64,000 nt of DNA from Hanstruepera neustonica (lineage in GTDB: Bacteria; Bacteroidota; Bacteroidia; Flavobacteriales; Flavobacteriaceae). The stretch lies in contig NZ_POWF01000002.1 of NCBI RefSeq assembly GCF_002895005.1, forward strand, positions 124,001-188,000, written 5' to 3'. Shown one piece after another: positions 1 to 13,379 of the stretch. The translations under genes and the position numbers were made by a program. The notes beneath the pieces were generated by a model. The model had not been told where the DNA came from, made no database searches, and saw nothing but the letters and a program-made list of their open reading frames with translations. The stretch's first letter is position 1. Each line of letters opens with the position of its first letter.

Positions 1-692
1 ATCTTATGAGCGAAAATAAAACTGGCAAATACCTCAAATATGCCTTGGGCGAAATTATCCTCGTGGTCATCGGTATTCTCATTGCCTTACAGATTAATAA
101 CTGGAATGAAAATCAAAAGCTAAAAAAAGAAGAAATAAAACTCCTACATGCTTTAGAAAAAGAAATTGAGTCCAACTTATCATCATTAGATACAACAATA
201 AAAGACAACGATGACATTCTGAAAATATCTTCTAGACTATTAAATGAAAGTCTTTTAAATCCAAAATATAATTCAAATCCTGCCGAGATAATTCAGTCGT
301 TGGGTTATAACACAAATAAATACGAAACTTCGATAATTAATGAAATTTTTGGAACAAATTCTAGAGCACTTATTTCAAATGATGAAACCATCGCGCGATT
401 GAGAACCTTAAAACAAGCCTATGATCGATCTGACGATACGCAATTATATGTTGATGAATTTTGGAATAACAAAGTAATGGAGTATTTCACAAAATCTGGT
501 TTGGGAATTTATATTGGAACTGTCAAAATTGATAAAAATTACAAAACAGATTTCCCTCTAAACAATGAATTTTATTCATTATTGGGTATCATGAATGGCT
601 GTCAGTTTTCATTAAACTTAAGTCGAAAAGATTTGAAGGAAGAATTATCCAACACGTTAACCTTCCTAAAAAAGAATTTGAATTCACTATGA
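1..692 (+). CDS. DUF6090 family membrane protein, paralog 1 (5' end outside window)
   Basis: First visible member of the paralog array. The first in-window ATG (6) corresponds to Met13 of the other copies, and bases 3-5 (CTT) encode the Leu that precedes it, so the true start lies about 31 nt upstream of the window. The family layout is a basic stub of about 24 residues, one membrane helix (AIGEIILVVIGILIALQI in most copies; here ALGEI) and a helical C-terminal region of about 180-200 residues. The positive-inside rule places the stub in the cytoplasm and the large domain in the periplasm. This is inference. The family has no known activity. The C-terminal region here lacks a clear S-G-x-L motif and is among the most divergent. 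It ends with an ATGA overlap with the next gene. Confidence 0.85.
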   Translation, partial: LMSENKTGKYLKYALGEIILVVIGILIALQINNWNENQKLKKEEIKLLHALEKEIESNLSSLDTTIKDNDDILKISSRLLNESLLNPKYNSNPAEIIQSLGYNTNKYETSIINEIFGTNSRALISNDETIARLRTLKQAYDRSDDTQLYVDEFWNNKVMEYFTKSGLGIYIGTVKIDKNYKTDFPLNNEFYSLLGIMNGCQFSLNLSRKDLKEELSNTLTFLKKNLNSL

Positions 693-1417
693 TTAAACTT
701 TTTAGAAATATTAGAAAGTCTCTTCTTTCTGAAGGCAAAACCAGTAAGTACTTTAAATATGCTATCGGTGAGATTATTCTTGTAGTGATTGGAATATTGA
801 TTGCCCTTCAAATCAACAATTGGAATGAGCAGAGAAAAGAAAAAATAAGAGCTTCCAATTATATGGAAAGAATTGAAGAAGACTTAAATAGATCCATTTC
901 AAGAAGTGAAAATCTTCTGAAGCTGAATAAAAAAATTTTAAAATCCGTAACTGACACTCAAAAACTGTTGGAGCGAGGGACTGCTCTTAATGATGAAGAG
1001 AAAAAAACAGTAGACTATGCCTTCTTATGGTTTCCCAGAACGACCTACCAAATGCCAAGTATGCTTACCTATGAAGAAATGAAAGAAAGTGGCGATTTAC
1101 ATCTTATAGAGAATATTGAATTAAGAAATGAATTAGCAGAGTTTTACAGTTATCTTCAGCAAGTTGAATCAGTTTATGAGAAATTAAGTCAAGACATTGA
1201 AAGCCAATTCAGTGTTTATAATTATCAAATTAGAGCTTATACTAATCCAGAAACTTTAAATATCACTTTTAAATATGACTTTAACCAACTTTGTCAAGAT
1301 ACTCTTTTTATCAACACTTTTTCTAGAATGGGCATACACTGGCGAGGTTTTGTCTATTTTATGGAGCGTATAAATTCAGATGCAAAAAAGGTAAAATCAA
1401 AAATTGATTCTATATGA
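689..1417 (+). CDS. DUF6090 family membrane protein, paralog 2
   Basis: 242 residues. The N-terminal module is the 'B' variant (RNIRKSLLSEGKTSKY, then the shared helix at residues 25-42). Coiled-coil-like helical sequence rich in Glu, Lys and Leu follows at about 47-90. A recognisable family motif, ESGDLHLIENIELRNEL, lies near residue 130; all but a few copies carry a version of it (S-G, hydrophobic, Asn, Leu). The start ATG at 689 overlaps the preceding stop by four bases (ATGA), so translation is probably coupled. The next gene overlaps in the same way at 1414. Function unknown. Confidence 0.85.
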   Translation: MIKLFRNIRKSLLSEGKTSKYFKYAIGEIILVVIGILIALQINNWNEQRKEKIRASNYMERIEEDLNRSISRSENLLKLNKKILKSVTDTQKLLERGTALNDEEKKTVDYAFLWFPRTTYQMPSMLTYEEMKESGDLHLIENIELRNELAEFYSYLQQVESVYEKLSQDIESQFSVYNYQIRAYTNPETLNITFKYDFNQLCQDTLFINTFSRMGIHWRGFVYFMERINSDAKKVKSKIDSI

Positions 1418-2154
1418 TAAAATTCTTTCGAAAAATACGCTACAATCTTATGAATGAAAATAAAACAGGCAAGTACTTCAAGTATGCCATTGGAGAAATT
1501 ATTCTTGTGGTTATAGGTATTCTCATTGCTTTACAGATTAACACCTGGAATCAAGAACATAACAACAGAAAGTTTGAAAAAGAAATGATGGCCAGTATCC
1601 ATTCCGAATTCAAAAACAACCTGACAAAAATTAAAACCAGCATTGTTCAATATGACAAAACCGAGCAAGCCATTCGGTTTTTAATGTCTAAAATAAAAGC
1701 GTCTTCAGAAGAGTTAAAAACTGAAAATATAGACAGTCTCCTTGCTGCAGCAGTTGATGTCTATGAATACCATCCTACACAAAATATCTTGACCGAAATA
1801 TTATCGACAGGGAATTTAAATTTAATCAAGAATGATTCCTTAAAATACCAATTACTCCATTGGTCTGGTGAATTCAATGAATTAAATGAAGCCTGGGAAA
1901 CCCTAGACGACTTTAACCAACATATGGTTATTCCTTACTTAACTACAAAAGCTTCAATGAAAAATATTGACAAATATTCCTTAATGGCTTGGGAGGAAAA
2001 ATCAAAATTCGAGATTGACTATGAAAGCGTTTTCAATGATTTGGAATTTGAAAACCACTTGGACAATCTTGGATGGGCTGTTGTAAATTATAGAATCGTA
2101 TTAAAACGTTTAGAAAAATTAATTAAACAAATCATTGAGCTAACCCATGATTAA
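1414..2154 (+). CDS. DUF6090 family membrane protein, paralog 3
   Basis: 246 residues. The N-terminal module is the 'A' variant (RKIRYNLMNENKTGKY). The C-terminal domain contains LSTGNLNLIKNDSLKYQLLHW, the clearest form of the family motif, and it resembles paralog 6 more than its direct neighbours. The final codons (CAT GAT TAA) are supplied by the start of the next gene, giving an eight-base overlap. The protein is predicted to be anchored in the inner membrane by one helix with the bulk outside the cytoplasm. Function unknown. Confidence 0.85.
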   Translation: MIKFFRKIRYNLMNENKTGKYFKYAIGEIILVVIGILIALQINTWNQEHNNRKFEKEMMASIHSEFKNNLTKIKTSIVQYDKTEQAIRFLMSKIKASSEELKTENIDSLLAAAVDVYEYHPTQNILTEILSTGNLNLIKNDSLKYQLLHWSGEFNELNEAWETLDDFNQHMVIPYLTTKASMKNIDKYSLMAWEEKSKFEIDYESVFNDLEFENHLDNLGWAVVNYRIVLKRLEKLIKQIIELTHD

Positions 2155-2917
2155 GTTTTTCAGAAATATCCGTAGGTCCTTTATTAACGAAGGCAAAACC
2201 AGCAAATACCTAAAATATGCCATTGGTGAAATTATCCTTGTGGTTATAGGCATTCTCATTGCACTTCAAATAAATAATTGGAATGCTCTCAAAAAACAAG
2301 AAAACAATAATATATTCTTAAGTAAGCGGCTACTTGTAGAAACTGATAAAAACATCATTGAACTAGAAAAAGAAATCATTTCAATAGAAAAATCAATAAA
2401 CTCATTACTTATGATGTTACACCTTACAGGTGAAGATTACCATGACGTTGATCCCAAAAAAGTTGACAGTTTAATTTATGATATTTTAGGCACACCAACC
2501 TATTATTTTAATGATGCTGTTTTAAATGAAGCCTTATCTACTGGTCAAGTGTCCAGTTTTGAAAATGACAGTTTAAAAAATATCATTTACAGCATTCCAA
2601 CGACCATGGAAACAGTCAAATTTCGAGAGCAAAACATTGAACAAGACACCAATACCAATTTAATTCCGTTTCTATACAATTACATCTCTCTAAGGAATGT
2701 TGACCACCAATTCTCTAACCTTGAAAACCTTGGAAAAAGTCAAATAAAAGAAATTGATAATCGTCAAATACTCTCCATGTTATTTTGGGAAAATGAAATT
2801 GACAACCTCCATTTTATATATAACACACTGCTAGAAGAAAGCTACAGGAAACTTGATAGAGACTTGAAGAGTTTAAAGATTTTATTGGAGCAACAGATAA
2901 ACAGCAATCATGATTAA
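2147..2917 (+). CDS. DUF6090 family membrane protein, paralog 4
   Basis: 256 residues. 'B'-type module (RNIRRSFINEGKTSKY) with the standard helix. After the helix the sequence is strongly helical with Ile and Glu heptads (about 50-85). The motif region reads LSTGQVSSFENDSLKNIIYS, so Leu-Ile of the motif is replaced by Ser-Phe. The gene overlaps both neighbours by eight bases through the shared ATGATTAA sequence. It ends in SNHD, where the last two residues are again encoded by the start of the following gene. Function unknown. Confidence 0.85.
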   Translation: MIKFFRNIRRSFINEGKTSKYLKYAIGEIILVVIGILIALQINNWNALKKQENNNIFLSKRLLVETDKNIIELEKEIISIEKSINSLLMMLHLTGEDYHDVDPKKVDSLIYDILGTPTYYFNDAVLNEALSTGQVSSFENDSLKNIIYSIPTTMETVKFREQNIEQDTNTNLIPFLYNYISLRNVDHQFSNLENLGKSQIKEIDNRQILSMLFWENEIDNLHFIYNTLLEESYRKLDRDLKSLKILLEQQINSNHD

Positions 2918-3602
2918 ATTCTTCCGAAAAATACGCTATAATCTTATGAGTGAGAACAAAACAGGTAAGTATTTTAAGTATGCTATAGGTGAAATTGTTT
3001 TAGTGGTTATTGGTATTTTGATTGCACTTCAGATAAACAATTGGAATGAGAGCAGAAAACAAAAACAAGCCGAGATTGAGTTTTTGAAAGGTATTAAAAA
3101 CGACCTCTCTCAAGACAAGTTATTTATTGAACAGGTTCTAAATATTACGGAACCCAAAATGCAAGCTTTCAAAAAACTTAACACAGACTCTTTGGATATT
3201 TCCAAAGATAAAGCTTCTATAGATTCCTTACTCAAAGTATACCTCAATACTGGACAACGTACCTTTTACCCAATTTCCGGTTCCTACCAAGCCGCCATTT
3301 CAGGCAACCAAATAAATACATACAAAAACAAGGAATTAATGCAATCTATTATAAAACTCTACAATTCCTCTTACGAAAGGGTTATTGATAACGGTAAAAT
3401 ATTGGACATTAGGTGGAGTGACATTAGTAAAATGTACATTCATGAACGCCGTTCAAAAAAATTCAATGTAACAGACTCACTATATCTTACAAAAACATTA
3501 GATGACCTTTACTTCCATTTTATACAACTACAGTGGTATGAAAATGTACTTGTACTCACAAGTAATGAAATAGATAACGTTTTAAATAAAATTCCAAATT
3601 GA
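2910..3602 (+). CDS. DUF6090 family membrane protein, paralog 5
   Basis: 230 residues, the shortest complete copy. 'A'-type module followed by NWNESRKQKQAEIEFLKGI. The motif is degenerate (AISGNQINTYKNKELMQSII). Thirteen bases separate its stop from the next start, one of the few places in the array where genes do not touch. I see no promoter or terminator in that gap. The C-terminal domain shows a similar spacing of helices to the other copies but little residue identity. Function unknown. Confidence 0.84.
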   Translation: MIKFFRKIRYNLMSENKTGKYFKYAIGEIVLVVIGILIALQINNWNESRKQKQAEIEFLKGIKNDLSQDKLFIEQVLNITEPKMQAFKKLNTDSLDISKDKASIDSLLKVYLNTGQRTFYPISGSYQAAISGNQINTYKNKELMQSIIKLYNSSYERVIDNGKILDIRWSDISKMYIHERRSKKFNVTDSLYLTKTLDDLYFHFIQLQWYENVLVLTSNEIDNVLNKIPN

Positions 3603-3615
3603 TACTAAACATATA

Positions 3616-4386
3616 ATGATTAAACTCTTTAGAAAAATACGCTACAACCTGATGAGTGAAAATAAAACAGCCAAGTACTTTAAATATGCCATCGGCGAAA
3701 TCATTCTAGTCGTCATTGGTATTCTCATTGCGCTTCAGATAAACAATTGGAATGAAAAGCAAAAGGATATAGAAAAGGAACAGCAAATCCTTTTGAGTTT
3801 AAGGGAAGAATTCAAGCAAAATATAAAAGAGCTCGAATTTGACCATACCTTAAATGAAGGGTGTTTAAATGCCATTGTTACGTTAATGAATTTTGACCAT
3901 ACAAATCCATTTAAAACCAAAACTATTGATAGCTTACTAGGGCAAATGTATAATTACGCCACCTTTGATGCGCGATTAGGTGTTATGAACGACATCACAT
4001 CTTCTGGTAATCTGGAACTCATAAGAGACTCTAAATTAAAATATGCACTTAACCAGTGGACAGGTGAACTTGACGATTATAAAGAAGACATTATTATCAG
4101 AAGAGAATATTGGGTAAACAATGTACCTGGAATATTGTACAAGTTCATTCCACTGCGAAATGTAGACGCTTCAATGAACAGATCTGATTACAAACGTGAT
4201 ATTATTATTCAACCTATGGAAGTTCCAAAAGAAAATTACGTAGCTTTCTTGTCAAGCCTAGAAGTTGATAGCATGTTGTTTGATTATTATATGAATCAAT
4301 CCTACGTTACCGTAAATGAAAATGTGATTATGCGTTTTTTGAAAGATACTTTAAGTTTAATAGAAGCCAACATAGAAGATGATTAA
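3616..4386 (+). CDS. DUF6090 family membrane protein, paralog 6
   Basis: 256 residues. 'A'-type module (MSENKTAKYFKY). The C-terminal domain carries MNDITSSGNLELIRDSKLKY followed by NQWTGELDDYKED, matching the arrangement in paralogs 3, 10 and 13 (S-G-x-L..., then W-S/T and an acidic stretch). A PLRNVD segment near residue 183 is shared with paralog 4 (SLRNVD). The last codons, GAT GAT TAA, overlap the next start by eight bases. Function unknown. Confidence 0.85.
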   Translation: MIKLFRKIRYNLMSENKTAKYFKYAIGEIILVVIGILIALQINNWNEKQKDIEKEQQILLSLREEFKQNIKELEFDHTLNEGCLNAIVTLMNFDHTNPFKTKTIDSLLGQMYNYATFDARLGVMNDITSSGNLELIRDSKLKYALNQWTGELDDYKEDIIIRREYWVNNVPGILYKFIPLRNVDASMNRSDYKRDIIIQPMEVPKENYVAFLSSLEVDSMLFDYYMNQSYVTVNENVIMRFLKDTLSLIEANIEDD

Positions 4387-5122
4387 ATTCTTTAGAAAAA
4401 TACGCTACAACCTTATGAGTGAGAACAAAACAGGCAAGTATTTCAAATACGCTATCGGAGAAATTATACTTGTAGTCATTGGTATTTTGATTGCCTTACA
4501 GATTAATAATTGGAATGAAAGTAGAAAAGAACAAAGACTGTTACAAACCTATTACAAGCAAATTCTGGAGGATTTAGATGAACAAAAAAAATATTCGGCA
4601 GAAACCATTACGCAATTAGATTCCAGTATCGCCTCTTATGAGGTTTACACCAAATTATTTGAAACTAAAAACCTAACTGTTAATGAAGCTCTAGATGCGC
4701 TCAATAAAGTAGAGAGAATAACACCCTATCTTAACTTTCGTTTCAACACCATGGAAACCTTACAATCTACTGGAGACATCAAGATTATTCCTGAAGATTT
4801 ACGAAATAAACTTATTACACATAAAAGCAAATTAGATGCTTGGACAACCGTTAACAATGGCAACCTAAATGTATATGTAACTGGTTTGTTGAAATATGGA
4901 GAAAAAGGATTGGGCACTTTTATTCCTCGATTAAATAGTCAACCAGATATCAAACAAGCAATAGATAACCATATCAACCCTATTGAAACTATTCTAACTG
5001 CCGAAAGCGCCTTCATTATTAAAATATATACTGAAAAAAACACCTGTAACCGTTTAAAACAAGTTCTTGAAAACATTGAGGTAATGGAAGACATCATCAA
5101 ACAAGAATTAAAAGAAAAATAA
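4379..5122 (+). CDS. DUF6090 family membrane protein, paralog 7
   Basis: 247 residues. 'A'-type module identical over its core to paralogs 5 and 8. The segment after the helix starts ESRKEQRLLQTYYKQILEDLDEQ, predicted helical. The motif is LQSTGDIKIIPEDLRNKLI near residue 125. The C-terminus is Lys/Glu-rich (DIIKQELKEK), like several copies. Nineteen bases separate it from the next gene. Function unknown. Confidence 0.85.
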   Translation: MIKFFRKIRYNLMSENKTGKYFKYAIGEIILVVIGILIALQINNWNESRKEQRLLQTYYKQILEDLDEQKKYSAETITQLDSSIASYEVYTKLFETKNLTVNEALDALNKVERITPYLNFRFNTMETLQSTGDIKIIPEDLRNKLITHKSKLDAWTTVNNGNLNVYVTGLLKYGEKGLGTFIPRLNSQPDIKQAIDNHINPIETILTAESAFIIKIYTEKNTCNRLKQVLENIEVMEDIIKQELKEK

Positions 5123-5141
5123 ATAATGAAAGTATCAACCT

Positions 5142-5879
5142 ATGATTAAACTCTTTCGAAAAATACGCTACAACCTTATGAGTGAAAATAAAACTGGTAA
5201 GTACCTCAAATATGCCATTGGAGAAATCGTACTTGTGGTAATAGGCATACTCATTGCTTTACAGATTAACAACTGGAATGAAGACAAAAAAATACTAAAA
5301 CAGGAAAAAGCAACTATCGCTAGTTTAAAACTGGAGTTTCAAAAAAATCTCGTAGACCTCGAAGACAATATTGATACCATTGAAAAAATTATTTCAGCTG
5401 GTAATATTTTATTGGAACATACAGATCCTGATTATGAATTTGGATCATTGAGTAATGTGGATAGTTTAATTAGTATGACTCCAAGAATGTCCGTTTGGGA
5501 TCCTAGCCTTTACACTTTAAGCAATATCAAGAATTCTGGTAAACTATCCAATCTGTCAAACGAAGCATTAAAAGTACAACTTATAGAGTGGGAAAGTTTT
5601 TATGGTAATTTATTGGATTGGGGCGATTTCTATGTTGAAAGAGGACATTATTATTTTAATTATTTGGTAGAAAATTCAGTAAACAGAAATTTAGATAAAA
5701 CTGGACCCATGAAATTTAGCAAATCTAAATTTGTAGGATCAAACGAAGAACTTTTAAGAATGCGCTCATTTGAGAATAATTTGACGCAACGTATAACCCA
5801 CAATGGATTCATGCTCCGATTTTATTTAGATGCCAAAAATAGATTAACAACTATTATTGCGCTTTGTGATGAATATTAG
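5142..5879 (+). CDS. DUF6090 family membrane protein, paralog 8
   Basis: 245 residues. 'A'-type module with the IVLVVIGILIALQI helix. The motif reads IKNSGKLSNLSNEALKVQLIEW, followed by several aromatic residues (ESFYGNLLDWGDFYVERGHYY kept in two parts around residue 170). This is the start of the longest spacer in the first half of the array: 47 bases to the next copy. The spacer shows no convincing terminator. Function unknown. Confidence 0.85.
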   Translation: MIKLFRKIRYNLMSENKTGKYLKYAIGEIVLVVIGILIALQINNWNEDKKILKQEKATIASLKLEFQKNLVDLEDNIDTIEKIISAGNILLEHTDPDYEFGSLSNVDSLISMTPRMSVWDPSLYTLSNIKNSGKLSNLSNEALKVQLIEWESFYGNLLDWGDFYVERGHYYFNYLVENSVNRNLDKTGPMKFSKSKFVGSNEELLRMRSFENNLTQRITHNGFMLRFYLDAKNRLTTIIALCDEY

Positions 5880-5926
5880 GAATGAGTAAGTGTTTTTGAC
5901 TATGACAAATATTAATAGCTTGATTT

Positions 5927-6673
5927 ATGATTAAACTCTTCCGTAAAATACGCTACAATCTGATGAATGAAAACAAAATGGCTAAGTACTTCAAATACGC
6001 TATAGGTGAAATTGTTCTTGTAGTTATTGGAATTCTGATTGCTCTTCAAATCAATACTTGGAATGAAGCAAACAAGACCAAACAGTTAGAAACAAAAATC
6101 TTGAAAGAATTCCAAAGTAATTTAATGTTGGACTTAAAAGAAATTCAACATGATATTGCTACTATGGATTCCATAGTTAAAGCTTGTAAGAACCTAAAAG
6201 ATTATATAAAAACACATGAAACACCTGATTCCAAATTTAATTATTCGGCGACATTGTTGAGAGTTATACCACATTTTGATCCCAATAAAAGCGGTTATGG
6301 ACTTCTACAATCTAAAGGTGTTGAAGTTATTTCAAACGATAGTTTGCGAAATAATATCTCGCTGCTTTACGAAAGAGCCTATCCCTATTACAGGCGATAT
6401 GAAGACGAGCGATTGGATTTCTTTAATCTAAATACGCAACCCAAGTTATTGGAATATTTTTATAAAAACTTTGATAGTACAGCCACCTGGTATGCCAATT
6501 ACAAAATAACACAAGCAGATTATGAAAGGCTCAAGGTAGACGAATCATTCTCCAGGTTATTAGCAACCATTGCATTTGAAAATGCTGGAGTGCAAAACAG
6601 AGCCAAACGAACAGAAGGGCAAATTAAAAAGCTTTTAAGTTTTATTGAAGACGAAATACAATCTAGTAATTAA
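5927..6673 (+). CDS. DUF6090 family membrane protein, paralog 9
   Basis: 248 residues. 'A'-type module with a small change (MNENKMAKYFKY). The helix ends QINTWNEANKTKQLE. The motif is LQSKGVEVISNDSLRNNISL, with Lys in place of Ser before Gly. It is the last copy before the DUF418 gene, from which it is separated by 29 bases. The run of same-strand, tightly spaced genes suggests one transcript through the DUF418 gene. Function unknown. Confidence 0.85.
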   Translation: MIKLFRKIRYNLMNENKMAKYFKYAIGEIVLVVIGILIALQINTWNEANKTKQLETKILKEFQSNLMLDLKEIQHDIATMDSIVKACKNLKDYIKTHETPDSKFNYSATLLRVIPHFDPNKSGYGLLQSKGVEVISNDSLRNNISLLYERAYPYYRRYEDERLDFFNLNTQPKLLEYFYKNFDSTATWYANYKITQADYERLKVDESFSRLLATIAFENAGVQNRAKRTEGQIKKLLSFIEDEIQSSN

Positions 6674-6702
6674 TAATTGTTTAATGTTTAAAACGCCAAA
6701 CC

Positions 6703-7947
6703 ATGGAAAGCGACAATGTAAAACCAATCTCCAAAAGTGAACGTATAGCCTACCTAGATATCTTAAGAGGTATTTCGATTCTGTTTATTTATACTGCAAA
6801 TATAATCATGTTTTCAGGCATATGGTTTTTTCCAGAGGACACACCTAGAAGGATATATACCTTACCTACTGATGAAGTTTTCGACTTTTTAAACTATGTT
6901 TTGGTTGATGGTAAGTTCTACTCTATTTTCTCGCTTCTTTTTGGTATTGGCTGTGTTATTCAATTTAACAACTTAACGGCTCATGGTAAGGCATTCGCTC
7001 CTTTTTTTAGAAGGCGCATGTTTTGGCTATTAATTATTGGAGGCATTCATTTAGTGCTATTTTGGCCAGGTGATATTTTGACTCTTTACGCTGTTCTTGG
7101 TTTTTTCTTGATATGGTTTGTTAGAAAATCCAATAAAACACTTTTAACCACTGCTGTTATCCTCATTTTGTTTCCATTAGTAAATTGGGCTTTCATGCAC
7201 TTTTCAGGCGTCTATTATCCTGGAATGGCTTTTCAAAAGAGCACAGAAATTTATCAAAATTTTGGGATGCCAATTATAGAATTCCAAGGTCAGATAGTTC
7301 CTGATTTTGTTGCCTACCAACTCAATGAGAATATCGCTGATTTTTTTAAAATGAATTTGGGAAATACCTTTGTTAGAATAGGTAGGATTTTAGATGAAGG
7401 TCGATTGTTTAAAGTTTTTGGAATCTTTTTAATAGGCATTTGGGCAGGTAGAAAAATTCTCAATGAAAATATTCTGGATAATACCGCATTTTTAAAAAAA
7501 GTGTTTCTAATTGGCTTATTGGTAGGCTTACCTGTAAATATTGTTAGAGGTTACATCGAGTTTTTTGTTGATAGCACAGATACTACAAAACTGTTTCATG
7601 TTCTTGCATATGCTTTAGGAACGTTACCTTTAGCGTTGAGTTATGCCGCTGGGATTGCCTTGTTAGTAAAGAAAAAAGTGCATTTTCTTGATTGGTTTAA
7701 ACCTGTTGGGAAAACGGCATTATCCAACTACCTGTTTCAAACAGCTATTTCTACCATTATTTTTTACGGATTTGGATTTAACCTCGTCGGAAAATTTGGC
7801 TTTACTTATGTCATGATGATTGGTTTGTGTGTATTTATCATACAAATTGTATGTAGTAAAATTTGGCTCAATTATTTCAAGTTTGGACCCATGGAATGGC
7901 TCTGGCGAAAACTAACTTATGGTGTACAACTAAAAATCAAAAAATGA
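6703..7947 (+). CDS. DUF418 domain-containing polytopic membrane protein
   Basis: 414 residues with about nine to ten hydrophobic segments. The N-terminus (ERIAYLDILRGISILFIYTANI) and the pattern SIFSLLFGIGCVIQ, FRRRMFWLLIIGGIH and GKTALSNYLFQT are typical of the DUF418/YeiB-type membrane family, which is distantly related to membrane acyltransferases; the substrate is unknown. It is the only non-DUF6090 gene within the array, placed between paralogs 9 and 10. Its stop overlaps the next start by four bases (ATGA, 7944-7947). Whether it works with the DUF6090 proteins is inference from position only. Confidence 0.88.
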   Translation: MESDNVKPISKSERIAYLDILRGISILFIYTANIIMFSGIWFFPEDTPRRIYTLPTDEVFDFLNYVLVDGKFYSIFSLLFGIGCVIQFNNLTAHGKAFAPFFRRRMFWLLIIGGIHLVLFWPGDILTLYAVLGFFLIWFVRKSNKTLLTTAVILILFPLVNWAFMHFSGVYYPGMAFQKSTEIYQNFGMPIIEFQGQIVPDFVAYQLNENIADFFKMNLGNTFVRIGRILDEGRLFKVFGIFLIGIWAGRKILNENILDNTAFLKKVFLIGLLVGLPVNIVRGYIEFFVDSTDTTKLFHVLAYALGTLPLALSYAAGIALLVKKKVHFLDWFKPVGKTALSNYLFQTAISTIIFYGFGFNLVGKFGFTYVMMIGLCVFIIQIVCSKIWLNYFKFGPMEWLWRKLTYGVQLKIKK

Positions 7948-8738
7948 TAAAATTTTTTAGAAACATTCGTAAAAAACTGGCATCCGAAAATAAAGCTGCG
8001 GCCTATTCAAGATATGCTATAGGCGAAATTGTACTCGTAGTTATTGGAATTCTCATTGCCCTTCAGATTAATAATTGGAATGAAACCCGCAAAGAGCGCG
8101 AAGAGGAAAGAGCGCTGTTACAACAGTTGCAATCTGAATTTGAAAGCAATCAAAAGCAACTGAACGAAAAAATAATCATTCGTAATAATATGATTGCTGC
8201 ATCCTTTAAGCTTTTAGATTATATAGACCACCCTGAAAAACGGCATTCAGATAGTATAAATAGCTATCTCGTTCAAACAATTTTGGTTCCTACCTTCGAT
8301 CCAATAATAAATGACATTATGAGTTCGGGAAGAATTCAGTTACTAAAAAACAATACATTGAAAGAACTATTGACCCTATGGACAAGTGAAATTATTCAGG
8401 TTACCGAAGAAGAGGTTGCTTGGAGAGAGTATAAATACAATCAATACCAACCTTTCTTACTCAAAGAAGCTTCAATAAGGTCAATAACCAATCAATACTG
8501 GCAAGACAATGCTATGGAAACCTTTTATTTGGACAAAGGAACGAGCGTTAAGTTCGATCTAAAGAACTCACGGACTCATACCGATTTTTCAAACATTTTT
8601 GAGAGTGCAAATTTTGAAGATCATCTTGCAGCTTGTGCAACCAATGCCAAAATTGCTAACATTCAATCCTTAAGTCTACAAAATAGGATTAAAGAAATAT
8701 TACAGATTATTAAGCAAGAACTCGAAGAAAATCCATGA
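7944..8738 (+). CDS. DUF6090 family membrane protein, paralog 10
   Basis: 264 residues from the ATG at 7944. A longer reading frame begins at 7863, but the family start (MIKFFRNIRKKL) fixes 7944, which also gives the usual ATGA overlap. 'C'-type module (LASENKAAAYSRYAIGEI), shared only with paralog 14. The C-terminal domain is clearly close to that of paralog 13: RNNMIAASFKLLDYID, TFDPIINDIMSSG, LLTLWTSEIIQV and IANIQSLSLQ each have a counterpart there, although paralog 13 has the 'A' module. This is evidence of module exchange. Function unknown. Confidence 0.87.
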   Translation: MIKFFRNIRKKLASENKAAAYSRYAIGEIVLVVIGILIALQINNWNETRKEREEERALLQQLQSEFESNQKQLNEKIIIRNNMIAASFKLLDYIDHPEKRHSDSINSYLVQTILVPTFDPIINDIMSSGRIQLLKNNTLKELLTLWTSEIIQVTEEEVAWREYKYNQYQPFLLKEASIRSITNQYWQDNAMETFYLDKGTSVKFDLKNSRTHTDFSNIFESANFEDHLAACATNAKIANIQSLSLQNRIKEILQIIKQELEENP

Positions 8739-9778
8739 TAAAGTTATTCAGAAATATTCGTAAAAACTTACTCAACGAAGGCAAAACCAGTAAGTACTTC
8801 AAGTATGCCATTGGTGAAATTGTATTAGTTGTTATTGGAATCTTGATAGCGTTACAAATAAACAATATCAATGAAGCAAAAAACAACGAAGCACGTTTCA
8901 AAAAAATACTAAAAGAACTTCGCAAAGATTTAGAAACAGACATCCTAAACTCTGAACCGTTACTGAAAGATAATCTGAAAGTTGATTCTTTGTCTAATTT
9001 AGTTTTAGACCATAAGTTTACTAAAGACGATTATTTAGAAAAAGGGTCTCGGAATCTATTTTGGGTAGGTTTACAGTTTTCGCCTTTTGATTATCAAAAA
9101 ACGGCTTTTAAAAAATTTGAGAGTTTCCAAGGTGTTGTTCCCGCAAAATATGATTCCATTATTAAAGACATCAATCATTATTATATTGATTTAGGTCAGT
9201 TTTATGACGATATATATGGCATTTTTAGAGAAAGAATAAATGACCACCATAGCTATTTAGTAAATAATACCAACTGGTATTATAAAATGAGGAATGGAGA
9301 AACCACTGATGAAATGATTGATTTTTATCTTAACAACCCAATGTATAAAAATTGGGTATCACAATACCAAATGGATAATACTGCAGGCAAGTATGGCACC
9401 TTAAAAATGTTGCAATCCAGAGGTTTTGGTTTACTACAAAAGCTAACTGAAACAATAGGTGATTCATATGAATTTAAAGATGAAGATATACTCAATAAGT
9501 ACGGAAAACCTATAGCTAACGCCAATGAATATGTTGGAGAATATAAAAATCTACAAACCAATAATACAACTAGAATCCAGCAAATAGGCGGACATCTGTT
9601 TGAAGGATATAATACTACTGGTGCTTTAAAAGAAATAAAAAGGGACACATTTCTGTATATTGATTATCCAGATTGGCAGAATATTTTTACTCGAGATGCT
9701 GACGGCAGAGTTAATGGTATGAAATTAAATCACCTTAAAGATTCAACACGAAACAGTTCTGCAATAAAAATTAAATAA
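8735..9778 (+). CDS. DUF6090-type N-terminus fused to a C-terminal beta-rich domain, paralog 11
   Basis: 347 residues, about 90 longer than the other copies. 'B'-type module (RNIRKNLLNEGKTSKY) and the shared helix, but the motif Trp of NNWNE is replaced (NNINEAKNN). The middle part is aromatic-rich and diverged. The last 85 or so residues (ANEYVGEYKNLQTNNTTRI, GGHLFEGY, then F-L-Y-I-D-Y and F-T-R-D-A-D-G-R-V-N-G-M-K-L) follow the pattern of DUF3471-like small beta domains found at the C-termini of beta-lactamase-family proteins. That assignment is by eye and uncertain. ATGA overlap upstream; stop and next start share one base. Confidence 0.8.
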   Translation: MIKLFRNIRKNLLNEGKTSKYFKYAIGEIVLVVIGILIALQINNINEAKNNEARFKKILKELRKDLETDILNSEPLLKDNLKVDSLSNLVLDHKFTKDDYLEKGSRNLFWVGLQFSPFDYQKTAFKKFESFQGVVPAKYDSIIKDINHYYIDLGQFYDDIYGIFRERINDHHSYLVNNTNWYYKMRNGETTDEMIDFYLNNPMYKNWVSQYQMDNTAGKYGTLKMLQSRGFGLLQKLTETIGDSYEFKDEDILNKYGKPIANANEYVGEYKNLQTNNTTRIQQIGGHLFEGYNTTGALKEIKRDTFLYIDYPDWQNIFTRDADGRVNGMKLNHLKDSTRNSSAIKIK

Positions 9779-10557
9779 TGATAAAATTTTTCAGAAACAT
9801 CCGCAAAAACTTACTCAACGAAGGTAAAACCGGCAAGTACTTCAAGTATGCCATTGGTGAAATTGTATTAGTTGTGATTGGAATTCTAATCGCACTACAA
9901 ATAAATAATTGGAATGAAAGTAGGAAACTGGAGAACAGCAAACAAAAACTAATGCTGGCTCTAAAAAATGAATTGGTTAACAACAAAAATACGCTGGAGA
10001 CTTATCTCCAAAATATTAACCTTACTAATTCAAAATTTAACAAAGTGCTACGTTATTCAGTTGGAGACTACACGATTCCCATAGATAGCTTAAAATACTA
10101 TCTCTCTGAAATGCTTTACGATAGGACCTTATCAATTTTTAGTTCAGTCCAAGAAGAAGCCATTAGTTCTGGTAAATTTGAATTATTAAGCGATAACCTT
10201 AAACAAAGTTTGTCTTTATTAAAAGATTATACCAACTCTAGAAGTTCTATACTAGAAAACGGTTATAATAGATTTTATTTTGGTACTGACAATCAAATAG
10301 AGAAAGTAACTACTAGCTTGTACATGTCTCCTGAAGTACCAGATGAATTAAAAATCCATCCCATAATTCCGACCCATCCTGAATTTTTACTGACCGATAC
10401 GGAGCTTTCAACTTTAGTGAAAAATCCCGAAACCTACTTAACACTTAATAAAATATACCTCACCTTTATAAGTGATGAAGTTTGGGTTAAATATGGGCTT
10501 TTAGACGTTACAAATAAAACCATTGAATTAATCAATAAAGAACTCAACGAAAAATGA
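9778..10557 (+). CDS. DUF6090 family membrane protein, paralog 12
   Basis: 259 residues. 'B'-type module, nearly identical at the DNA level to that of paralog 11 just upstream (a recent duplication or conversion of the 5' ends), while the C-terminal domains are unrelated by eye. The motif reads AISSGKFELLSDNLKQSLSLL. The C-terminus (IELINKELNEK) is Lys/Glu-rich. Four-base ATGA overlap with paralog 13. Function unknown. Confidence 0.86.
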   Translation: MIKFFRNIRKNLLNEGKTGKYFKYAIGEIVLVVIGILIALQINNWNESRKLENSKQKLMLALKNELVNNKNTLETYLQNINLTNSKFNKVLRYSVGDYTIPIDSLKYYLSEMLYDRTLSIFSSVQEEAISSGKFELLSDNLKQSLSLLKDYTNSRSSILENGYNRFYFGTDNQIEKVTTSLYMSPEVPDELKIHPIIPTHPEFLLTDTELSTLVKNPETYLTLNKIYLTFISDEVWVKYGLLDVTNKTIELINKELNEK

Positions 10558-11342
10558 TTAAATTTTTTAGAAAAATACGCTATAACCTTATGAGTGAAAA
10601 CAAAACAGGCAAATACCTTAAATACGCTATTGGTGAAATCATCTTAGTCGTGATTGGAATTCTCATCGCGCTCCAAATAAATAACTGGAATAACCACCAA
10701 AAGGATTTAGTGAAGGAACAAAAAATATTGTTACAGCTTAAGGAAGAATACACAAAAAATCTCGCCCAACTTCAGCAAAAAATCACAATGCGTAACAATA
10801 TAATTACGGCTTCCTCAAAGGTATTAAGCTATATTGATAACCCAATCAACGTTTCCAAAGACAGTCTATTATATCACCTAAATTTTATAGGAACCGACCC
10901 TACCTTTGATCCTATCAAGAATGACCTCATTGAATCAGGAAACCTGCATTTAATAAATAACGAAAGCCTAAAACAACGACTATCAAACTGGACATCTGAT
11001 GTCTATCAAGTTCAGGAAAATGAATTAGAATGGCAAAAGTTTCGAACCGAAGTTGTCATGCCTTTTATGGTAAGCAACGGATTAGCACGTGACTTATCAA
11101 ACAACATATGGAAAGATGGCTATACTCCCATACATGCTTTAAACCAAAAAATAAACCTAAAAACTAAAATTGGCTCTTCAAAACATAGTCTCGCTATAGA
11201 AGAAATTTTAAATAATGTTGAATTGGAAGGTTTAGCAGCTATGGCTATTACGTGGAGTAATATTGCTAATATCCAATCTCTAGCACTACAAGAAAATATA
11301 ATAGAAATTATAGCACTTATTAATAAAGAAATTGAAAGGTAA
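10554..11342 (+). CDS. DUF6090 family membrane protein, paralog 13
   Basis: 262 residues. 'A'-type module. The C-terminal domain is the nearest relative of paralog 10 in the array: RNNIITASSKVLSYID, TFDPIKNDLIESGNLHLINN, LSNWTSDVYQV and IANIQSLALQ line up in order. Because the two differ in module type, the 5' part and the rest of the gene have different histories. The stop TAA is directly followed by the ATG of paralog 14. Function unknown. Confidence 0.87.
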   Translation: MIKFFRKIRYNLMSENKTGKYLKYAIGEIILVVIGILIALQINNWNNHQKDLVKEQKILLQLKEEYTKNLAQLQQKITMRNNIITASSKVLSYIDNPINVSKDSLLYHLNFIGTDPTFDPIKNDLIESGNLHLINNESLKQRLSNWTSDVYQVQENELEWQKFRTEVVMPFMVSNGLARDLSNNIWKDGYTPIHALNQKINLKTKIGSSKHSLAIEEILNNVELEGLAAMAITWSNIANIQSLALQENIIEIIALINKEIER

Positions 11343-12077
11343 ATGATCAAATTTTTTAGAAACATTCGCAAAAAACTGGCTTCCGAAAATAAAGCTGCGG
11401 CCTATTCTAGATATGCCATAGGCGAAATTGTACTCGTAGTCATTGGGATTCTTATTGCCCTTCAAATTAATAATTGGAATGAGAAACGCATAAAATCAAA
11501 TAAGGAAACTGCCATTCTTAAAAATATTCATAACGAGTTCAAGAAAAACCAAAAACAACTGGACTCCGTACTATTTGAACACAGAAGGGTTTTTAATAAT
11601 TGTAAAAAAGTAATCGATCTTTTTCCCATAAAATCAAAACCTGAACAAAAAGTATTGGATTCTTTAACAGTTCAGCTTTGGTGGACTTATGGAGGTCATA
11701 CGTTTAATCCTTCGCAAACCAGTATTAGTGCATTGGCCAGTACATCATCTTTTGATATCATTAAAAATGATACGTTACGTGATTTATTAATTTCATGGAA
11801 TGATTTAGTAAAAGATTATCAGGAAGAAGAATCTCGTTCTAGAGATCATCTTTGGGACCAATATGATCCTTATATGTCTAAAAATTTTGATTGGAATTTT
11901 AATTTTAATGACGAAAGAAACAATTTTGATGCTCTTCAAACTTTGGAGTTTGAATATTTAATGAAAAGCAGATATGATTTTCTTGATCAAATCTTAAATA
12001 CCAGTGGCGAATTACAAAAACTGCAAGAATCCCTGAAAAAAATAATTGAGCTATCAAGTCCAAAATCTGATAACTAA
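11343..12077 (+). CDS. DUF6090 family membrane protein, paralog 14 (last of array)
   Basis: 244 residues. 'C'-type module almost identical to paralog 10 (LASENKAAAYSRYAIGEI). The motif is changed to LASTSSFDIIKNDTLRDLLISW (Ser for Gly), followed by an acidic/basic patch (YQEEESRSRDHLWDQYDPYM). It closes the array. About 50 bases later a palindromic operator belonging to the next operon begins. No clear terminator follows it. Function unknown. Confidence 0.86.
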   Translation: MIKFFRNIRKKLASENKAAAYSRYAIGEIVLVVIGILIALQINNWNEKRIKSNKETAILKNIHNEFKKNQKQLDSVLFEHRRVFNNCKKVIDLFPIKSKPEQKVLDSLTVQLWWTYGGHTFNPSQTSISALASTSSFDIIKNDTLRDLLISWNDLVKDYQEEESRSRDHLWDQYDPYMSKNFDWNFNFNDERNNFDALQTLEFEYLMKSRYDFLDQILNTSGELQKLQESLKKIIELSSPKSDN

Positions 12078-13085: not shown

Positions 13086-13379
13086 ATGAGCATCATAACC
13101 AACATAAATAAAGTTTTTGATCACCGCATTCGTTTGGGGATCATGTCTATTTTAATGGTTAATGAATATGCCGATTTTAATACCCTAAAAGAATTGTTGG
13201 ATGTCACTGATGGCAATTTGGCCAGTCATACCAAAGCCTTGGAAAAAGCTGATTATATATCAGTTGAAAAGCAGTTTATTGGTAGAAAACCAAACACACG
13301 CTATGCCACAACCAAATTGGGCCGAGCTGAATTTAAAAAGCACATAGATGCTTTAGAAAAATTAATCAATAAAGAATAA
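13086..13379 (+). CDS. Winged-helix transcriptional regulator (HTH_34/MarR-like)
   Basis: 97 residues, entirely a winged-helix domain: MSILMVNEYADFNTLKEL (helices 1-2), DVTDGNLASHTKALEKADYI (recognition helix; the DGNLxSHxKxLE pattern is typical of the family) and the wing KQFIGRKPNTRYATTKLG. No ligand domain is visible. It is encoded third in its operon. The two nearly identical palindromes at 12129 and 13392 flank its operon, which suggests autoregulation plus control of the MpaB/CreD genes downstream. Family members often repress envelope or stress genes, but the signal here is unknown. Confidence 0.85.
   Translation: MSIITNINKVFDHRIRLGIMSILMVNEYADFNTLKELLDVTDGNLASHTKALEKADYISVEKQFIGRKPNTRYATTKLGRAEFKKHIDALEKLINKE

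Follow-up and report, generated by a model that had tools for sequence, protein, structure and literature searches.

How does a bacterial chromosome come to hold a long row of genes that start almost alike and then diverge strongly, and what would such a set of proteins be for? This question is raised by a 64,000-nucleotide stretch of the Hanstruepera neustonica genome (G000, 3.05 Mb; positions C9:124001-188000; referred to in its entirety as the window), in which positions 1-12077 carry 14 open reading frames (ORFs) of the Pfam family DUF6090 (PF19578), all on the + strand and 228-347 amino acids (aa) long. Their products share a near-constant N-terminal anchor followed by a variable C-terminal body. 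We propose, with a probability of about 0.58, that the array is a repertoire locus of exchangeable cassettes in which the bodies act as binders. The architecture of the genes, the fold shared by the bodies, the turnover of copies, their transfer, the position of the crossovers and the purifying selection on shared bodies were all computed here.

Array content changes at a fixed locus

In each of five Hanstruepera genomes (G000 and four others, G001-G004), a DUF6090 array lies between the same conserved flanks, namely the gene at C9:121248 and its neighbours on the left and the genes at C9:136112, 136789 and 137086 on the right. The arrays hold 17, 12, 12, 11 and 5 copies. Grouped at 60% body identity, these 57 copies form 35 families, of which 21 are found in one species, nine in two, three in three, one in four and one in all five; a family private to one species at this locus may still sit at another locus of a congener. 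The sole family present in five of five genomes is that of copy 17 of the G000 array, which is the last gene in four genomes and the next to last in one. The order of the shared copies is kept among G000, G002 and G003 and changed in G001 and G004. The comparison is between congeneric species.

The flank genes provide a measure of the divergence of these species. Across 295 gene pairs (reciprocal best matches of at least 40% identity, with length limits), their median silent divergence (pS) was 0.66-0.72 in nine species pairs and 0.45 for G002-G004, and the median identity of flank proteins was 73-83%, or 91% for G002-G004. Of the 133 reciprocal-best body pairs among the five genomes, 31 fell below the lowest flank pS of their species pair, with values down to 0.05, and bodies that have moved between species or genera showed a silent divergence of 0.05-0.45 as against ~0.7 in flank genes. 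The N part of the same genes (codons 1-24) had a pS of at least 0.6 in 22 of the 31 low-pS body pairs. Sharing also reaches beyond the genus and between paralogous arrays: the body of copy 9 (3616-4386) has a nucleotide identity of 0.93 to a Psychroserpens copy and of 0.87 to a Croceivirga copy, equal to the respective protein identities, and one and the same body is present in array 1 of G001 and array 2 of G000, G002 and G003 with a differing 5' end (G001C7_548396).

The shared bodies are under purifying selection, with ratios of nonsynonymous to synonymous divergence (dN/dS) of 0.02-0.30 in the 31 pairs, averaged over the whole body. Positive selection, which a preliminary description of this DNA had proposed to look for, was thus not indicated by this whole-body measure, which includes no site test. 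The same description had held that a diversity system would be unlikely if the same copies were carried in the same order under strong purifying selection; the selection was found, whereas the same copies were not, only one of the 35 families being common to all five genomes.

Crossovers fall mostly in the anchor

Steps in identity along the gene were sought in pairs of copies from different genomes whose bodies had an identity of 85% or more, and a step was counted as supported at a log-likelihood gain over 8. A supported step from low to high identity was present in 30 of 43 pairs and a step from high to low in none. The anchor of 47 codons, which makes up about one fifth of the gene, contained 24 of the 30 steps (23 fall within codon 47 by absolute codon count). 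The pairs are not independent, and cluster counts therefore stand beside the pair counts: the 43 pairs represent 27 body clusters, with at least one anchor step in 16. As a control, the same test on 85 pairs of core genes (reciprocal best, identity 85% or higher, with length limits) gave six low-to-high steps, four of them in the first 45 codons, and four high-to-low steps. The first 25 codons were at least 0.1 less alike than the remainder in 29 of the 43 DUF6090 pairs versus 9 of the 85 core pairs, and in 23 of 43 DUF6090 pairs the similarity of the N parts did not exceed the 95% baseline set by unrelated copies.

Mostly single genes are shared: in 19 of 23 pairs an unrelated body follows, and in 12 of 15 an unrelated body precedes. 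Where the next body was unrelated, the N part of the next gene exceeded the 95% baseline in 7 of the 19 pairs (in one barely), and identity ended before the next body; in three of those seven pairs the transmembrane (TM) part of the next gene was also above its baseline. A retained N part beside a lost body fits a crossover in the anchor of the next gene. From these comparisons, anchors tend to stay with the locus while bodies move, with the joint mostly in the anchor. The suggestion in the preliminary description of a diversity-generating system holds in one form, that is, as turnover of content at a fixed locus with bodies that cross species boundaries. The pattern supports the idea that diversity would arise by recombination in the anchor, shuffling intact co-directional genes.

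For these analyses, DUF6090 genes were taken from fetched stretches of chromosome, which covered all 37 matches in G000, 42 of 46 in G001, 36 of 43 in G002, 22 of 29 in G003, 7 of 12 in G004, 29 of 38 in G028 and 17 of 28 in G029; one weak match (E 2e-3) was dropped. The full set of 543 genes includes 18 repeats of G001, G004 or G028 genes, and these were excluded from pair counts, as were the pairings of locus L143 with G004, which belong to the same species.

Organization of the array

The H. neustonica array comprises 17 DUF6090 genes (C9:121734-136077), and the expectation that it would continue past the window proved correct: three copies, starting at C9:121734, 122444 and 123204, lie to the left of the 14 inside. 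The family assignment, originally made from the anchor sequence, is confirmed by PF19578 scores of 29.0-90.9 bits for the window copies, 14 of 14 exceeding the cut-off of 23.5. The whole genome contains 37 matches, 36 of them above this cut-off, and has a second array of nine copies on C11. The window copies had been described as fourteen consecutive same-strand paralogs with touching or overlapping genes. They do share one strand, but a gene for a 414-aa DUF418 protein splits them into nine and five. Apart from the DUF418 site, successive copies are spaced by -8, -4, -1, 0, 4, 13, 19 or 47 bases, and so touch or overlap at some junctions and not at others. The features are as follows.

1..692, +, DUF6090 copy 4 of 17; ORF; PF19578 36.0 bits; truncated at its 5' end by the window edge, with its start at C9:123970, 31 bases before the first window position
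689..1417, +, DUF6090 copy 5; ORF; PF19578 41.8 bits
1414..2154, +, DUF6090 copy 6; ORF, PF19578; body 97% identical to a copy in H. ponticola (G001), N part unrelated
2147..2917, +, DUF6090 copy 7; ORF, PF19578; body 97% identical to the copy that follows in that G001 array; the N parts are unrelated
2910..3602, +, DUF6090 copy 8; PF19578 90.9 bits, the top score in the genome
3616..4386, +, DUF6090 copy 9; PF19578; body 93% identical to a Psychroserpens copy and 87% to a Croceivirga copy; mean AlphaFold confidence (pLDDT) 94
4379..5122, +, DUF6090 copy 10; PF19578; without a reciprocal best body among the six genomes compared
5142..5879, +, DUF6090 copy 11; PF19578
5927..6673, +, DUF6090 copy 12; PF19578
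6703..7947, +, DUF418 (YeiB-like) membrane protein gene within the array; PF04235 154 bits
7944..8738, +, DUF6090 copy 13; ORF, PF19578; ATGA overlap with the DUF418 gene
8735..9778, +, DUF6090 copy 14, long form with a predicted extra C-terminal beta-barrel domain (residues ~257-347, from the structure model; weakly DUF3471-like)
9778..10557, +, DUF6090 copy 15; PF19578
10554..11342, +, DUF6090 copy 16; PF19578
11343..12077, +, DUF6090 copy 17, last gene; PF19578
12112..12765, +, right flank gene, membrane protein; conserved at the same position in 5/5 genomes
13086..13379, +, right flank gene, HTH_34 winged-helix regulator; conserved in 5/5 genomes

Tight packing is common in the family. Among 335 junctions between neighbouring copies in the fetched loci, the genes overlap or abut at 154 and lie no more than 30 bases apart at 259, with an overlap of 8 bases at 85 junctions and of 4 bases at 52. 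A common gene start, ATGATTAA, carries stop codons in both other frames, so that a body placed ahead of it would end at once in any frame; this start may thus act as a frame-independent terminator for incoming bodies. Because the window copies are all intact ORFs and run in one direction, all the proteins of the set are probably produced together, and the array genes are probably co-transcribed.

Other genes are occasionally found inside DUF6090 arrays. The DUF418 gene is also present in the arrays of G002 and G003 at the same locus and in an array of G019. A GIY-YIG nuclease gene lies inside the second array of two congeners, at L032:7917-8270 (G000 C11; PF01541, scanned for L032) and L098:7304. 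Single-TM proteins with a related yet distinct TM motif (E-x5-G-x3-A...N) were seen by eye within arrays at L068:2011, L159:12634, L166:6338 and L192:7092, which suggests a wider superfamily.

The anchor is conserved mainly in protein

The claim of a shared anchor of about 47 residues is borne out. Among the 14 array copies 29 columns are invariant, every one within residues 1-46, and residues 1-47 follow the pattern M-I-K-x-F-R-x-I-R...K-Y-x-K-Y-A-I-G-E-I-x-L-V-V-I-G-I-L-I-A-L-Q-I-N-N-W-N. Across 120 DUF6090 proteins F5, R9, Y21, Y24, G27, E28, L31, V32, G35, I36, L37 and A39 are invariant. In copy 9 seven positive charges stand ahead of the hydrophobic stretch, and the positive-inside rule together with the AlphaFold models predicts a cytoplasmic N-terminus and a periplasmic body.

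Such identity could be maintained by selection or by copying. The anchor codons have nearly saturated silent sites. Where residues agree between the 37 G000 copies, the same codon was used with a frequency of 0.50, 0.43, 0.58, 0.41, 0.44 and 0.58 in six blocks spanning codons 2-56, compared with 0.53, 0.41, 0.59, 0.39, 0.41 and 0.58 expected from codon usage. Because same-codon use is about what codon usage predicts, anchor identity is not mainly due to recent copying, and recent duplication or gene conversion was rejected as its main cause; that anchor pS (codons 13-46) was below 0.2 in only 1 of 179 same-array pairs of G000 also argues against recent copying. Judged by these silent sites, the anchor is kept identical mainly by selection on the protein.

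Copying is not absent. In some genomes the TM part shows an excess of same-codon use (in G003, 0.50 versus 0.38). Among 140 genes, 25 pairs have N parts (first 24 codons) at least 0.93 identical and unrelated bodies, 10 of the 25 within one genome; therefore, local exchange of anchors also occurs. The nearest N part lies in the same array for 42 of the 140 genes (7 expected), and the nearest TM part for 20.

Separately, 27 of the 543 genes (24 of 525 distinct genes), at 14 loci, contain short in-frame insertions in the anchor that are GC-rich and partly palindromic (for example L088:11490 in G001, L102 in G028, L120:14505, L132:15085, L139:8762, L151:6549, L156:7258 and L160:4783). They lie at a similar site, between about residue 12 and the TM helix, and differ in sequence between genera. 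A search of six genomes found one palindrome form in three of them (1, 6 and 2 times) and not in G000. By their sequence, the insertions look like mobile palindromic mini-elements.

The bodies belong to one helical family

The preliminary description had reported strongly divergent C-terminal domains. The divergence in sequence is real, as blastp at E<1e-3 links only 62 of the 666 body pairs within G000. The bodies are nevertheless not separate domains: an iterated profile seeded with a single body (residue 47 onward) reached 529 of 543 bodies, 518 of them over at least 75% of the model. Because one body suffices to reach nearly all others in this way, we conclude that the C-terminal parts form one homologous, all-helical family, and a set of unrelated C-terminal domains was rejected. 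Structure prediction, which had been suggested as a check for a single fold, gave the same answer, as the AlphaFold models of two copies only 23% identical to each other agree in fold (mean pLDDT 94.3 and 83.8). In the modelled fold a helix of residues 18-91 runs from the TM segment into a bundle and is followed by two more long helices. In both models there is one TM helix and then only the bundle (and barrel) to the C-terminus, without a second TM helix or a cytoplasmic signalling domain.

The top structural matches of the body were to designed helical bundles, with Z up to 12.8, and to a protein from rice (10.7). Among bacterial proteins, ligand-binding domains of chemoreceptors (Tar, Tsr, PcaY) and Borrelia OspC/Vsp matched at Z ~8-9, within the helical-bundle background of the tool, and the body plus part of the TM helix matched NarQ at Z 7.6. 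As modelled, DUF6090 proteins would resemble the four-helix-bundle domains of Tar, Tsr and PcaY and NarQ in that a TM helix continues into a periplasmic helical bundle, but they differ from them in having one TM helix and no signalling domain, and the structural scores do not rise above the bundle background. Foldseek gave no match at E<=0.001 against the Protein Data Bank (PDB) or viral models, and six matches of the profile to PDB sequences (E 0.04-0.6) were not used.

Long copies of 310-450 residues account for 22 of the 543 genes (20 of 525 distinct). The C-terminal barrel of copy 14 (8735-9778) matches that of D-aminopeptidase 1ei5 (Z 10.2 over 85 residues, root-mean-square deviation 2.8) and also resembles parts of esterase 7spn, Ulm16 8fek and 2qmi (Z 8.7-9.1); its DUF3471 score of 25.4 bits, below the cut-off of 29.3, is consistent with the barrel match. 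Other long copies have sub-threshold scores for CIA30/CBM30, SusF_SusE or DUF3471, or none.

A model for the array and its alternatives

In the proposed model, each gene product would consist of a short positively charged cytoplasmic helix and one TM helix, which together form the near-constant anchor, followed by a periplasmic helical-bundle body, to which a few copies would add a second, membrane-distal beta domain. Because the genes run head to tail, every body inside the array has an anchor before and after it, and recombination would use the anchor coding sequence as its homology block: an incoming body would cross over in the recipient anchor and, at its 3' end, at or within the anchor of the following gene. 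In this manner arrays may gain, lose and swap single bodies among paralogous arrays, species and genera at a fixed chromosomal site, while each body stays under purifying selection. The whole set, expressed together, would be a standing repertoire in which each body binds one ligand and is held at the inner membrane by the common docking module. Here, topology, co-expression, binding and role are what we infer from the results above. The model turns a paralogue expansion into a testable proposal with a constant anchor, exchangeable bodies, crossover in the anchor and purifying selection after transfer.

By analogy with tandem immunity arrays, the role we rate most likely, although tentatively and at less than even odds, is protection of the envelope against changing toxins or phages; ligand sensing through a shared membrane partner is rated next, as a serious possibility. 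If the bodies protect against toxins of neighbours or against phages, the arrays would be a large unrecognised defence repertoire of marine bacteria, and if the TM helix links them to a common partner, that partner could be fished out by means of the constant anchor. In a further, more doubtful extension, the anchor would act both as a common plug into a partner and as the stretch of DNA homology through which dozens of periplasmic binders are traded among species and genera of marine Bacteroidota, giving a shared-socket system for immunity or sensing that lacks its own recombinase, toxin and secretion system.

Several observations weigh against the repertoire of exchangeable binders or its immunity role. 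Six of the 30 steps fall outside the anchor, in the body at 41-77 codons beyond G27, and 13 of the 43 pairs have no supported step. Base identity between the anchors of unrelated copies is only ~0.62 in the N part and ~0.74 in the TM part, or 0.67 and 0.77 between congeners, which is low for homologous recombination; therefore, exchange may depend on rare closer matches. The invariance of 12 anchor positions in 120 proteins exceeds the needs of a plain tether and speaks for a specific partner, which immunity does not explain. Whole-body dN/dS shows no sign of positive selection, unlike what a preprint reports for the rAID orphan immunity genes (PMC12247911). No toxin was recognised among 15 flank genes, of which five without a Pfam family could hide one, or in the 25 commonest families of 149 immediate neighbours at other loci, and 17 mostly low-copy loci have varied neighbours. 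Nor is the type VI secretion system (T6SS; PF17541, TssC) commoner with DUF6090, which is present in 22 of 43 TssC-positive versus 212 of 354 TssC-negative Flavobacteriaceae, as tallied by hand from the two genome listings.

One alternative is a sensor or adaptor repertoire, in which ligand-binding bundles plug via the constant TM helix into one membrane partner, much as interchangeable subunits use a single docking site, without any immunity role. We consider this alternative a realistic one, if short of an even chance. A TM and cytoplasmic helix invariant at those 12 positions, the resemblance of the body to the ligand-binding domains of Tar, Tsr and PcaY and to NarQ, and the few copies with extra C-terminal domains of sub-threshold CIA30/CBM30, SusF_SusE or DUF3471 score all agree with it; yet designed bundles and an unrelated rice protein score higher than any of these receptors, and the proteins have no second TM helix, HAMP or output domain and no recurrent neighbour as partner. 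A barrier to phages at the envelope, akin to superinfection exclusion but chromosomal, would suit membrane-anchored, probably periplasmic helical proteins of variable number and accessory distribution (234 of 397 family genomes). It is unlikely, as a search with one copy as query gave no plasmid or phage match, an alignment of 120 proteins found none in viral contigs, PADLOC gave no match at E<=1 for the eight copies and the DUF418 protein scanned, and no viral fold matched at E<=0.001.

The array might also be an ordinary old gene family that arose by duplication and divergence, with the anchor held by selection alone and recombination incidental. Near-saturated silent sites in the anchor, the homology of all bodies and the order shared by G000, G002 and G003 are what such a history would leave. 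We nevertheless regard it as quite improbable, and the pairs with a supported step already contradict it: bodies at pS 0.05-0.3 stand next to saturated 5' ends, the steps are concentrated in the anchor and not matched in the core control, N parts are array-specific and the order is changed in G001 and G004. Least probable by far is antigenic or phase variation, with one copy displayed at a time and the rest a silent store. A constant 5' part, a variable 3' part and a tandem array recall such systems, but the window copies are all intact, with their own start and in the same direction (no search for inversions was made), and the protein is predicted to reside at the inner membrane.

Comparison with known tandem arrays

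As described in PMC9484751, EsaG of S. aureus and TipC of Streptococcus are tandem type VII secretion immunity paralogues that recombine at conserved blocks. Like DUF6090, they form tandem arrays of non-identical paralogues in variable number with recombination at a conserved block within the genes, and TipC is in addition membrane-bound and outward-facing. According to the same paper, EsaG and TipC have a known toxin whereas the DUF6090 array has none that we recognised; the EsaG blocks are ~55-100 nt and conserved in DNA whereas the DUF6090 block is conserved in protein and little at silent sites; and the recombination described for EsaG and TipC is among paralogues of one species whereas DUF6090 bodies are shared across species and genera. 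The TilA/Lpl (DUF576) lipoproteins of S. aureus are reported in PMC10730906 to shuffle across one conserved stretch of ~130 nt, close to the 141 nt of the anchor, and likewise are membrane-anchored extracytoplasmic tandem proteins of variable copy number. Unlike in DUF6090, that block lies in the gene centre, the proteins are lipoproteins and the toxin, TslA, is known and encodable at three of four loci. The rAID loci of gut Bacteroidales, as reported in the preprint (PMC12247911), resemble DUF6090 as arrays of sequence-diverging orphan genes in Bacteroidota. They differ in having a recombinase and immunity domains such as SUKH, while no recombinase was found among the 15 flank genes here (five without a Pfam family), and in their selection, as the DUF6090 pairs tested show purifying selection.

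The locus thus has the intact, non-identical tandem paralogues in variable number and the recombination at a conserved block that are seen in tandem immunity arrays. Because architecture and mode of evolution are shared but no toxin or T6SS link is recognisable, we regard it as like immunity arrays in its evolution and do not class it as one. In Pfam, PF19578 is a family name without a function, to which 14 of 14 window copies belong. NCBIfam had nothing for DUF6090, the best PHROGs match was unnamed (E 0.0036), and searches of a literature library found no publication naming DUF6090 or PF19578 and, on constant-anchor paralogue arrays and DUF3471/DUF418, nothing about this family.

Neighbouring genes and distribution

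The 15 flank genes scanned include members of the BipA, DAHP synthase, GNAT, DUF1801, HTH_34, MPAB and CreD families, and no reverse transcriptase of the kind that accompanies a diversity-generating retroelement was found among them (no search for a template repeat was made). Outside a genus, no neighbour recurs in more than 6 of 69 arrays of at least three genes. Near and far neighbours were compared after shuffling, de-duplication, removal of proteins >1000 aa and a cap at 149 genes, so that 149 of the 186 genes near the arrays and 149 of the 366 far ones entered, and this comparison gave no common partner, with beta-lactamase-like hydrolases at 4 versus 4; amidohydrolase families numbered 4, 4 and 2 near and were absent from the 25 families listed for far genes. 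By eye, a serine beta-lactamase-like hydrolase lies within three genes at 4 of the 17 mostly low-copy loci (L200:7977, L207:7162, L211:7673 and L212:360). For the T6SS, PF17541 had no match in G000, G001 or G004, and PF05943, a profile that seems blind to the Bacteroidota subtype, matched 0 of 5 and 0 of 397 genomes.

DUF6090 was found in 234 of 397 Flavobacteriaceae genomes, in 27 of 148 sampled Bacteroidota and in none of 14 control genomes. One genome (G181:C1) contains 93 first-look DUF6090 candidates, among them a copy at 202.7 bits that is perhaps near the Pfam seed.

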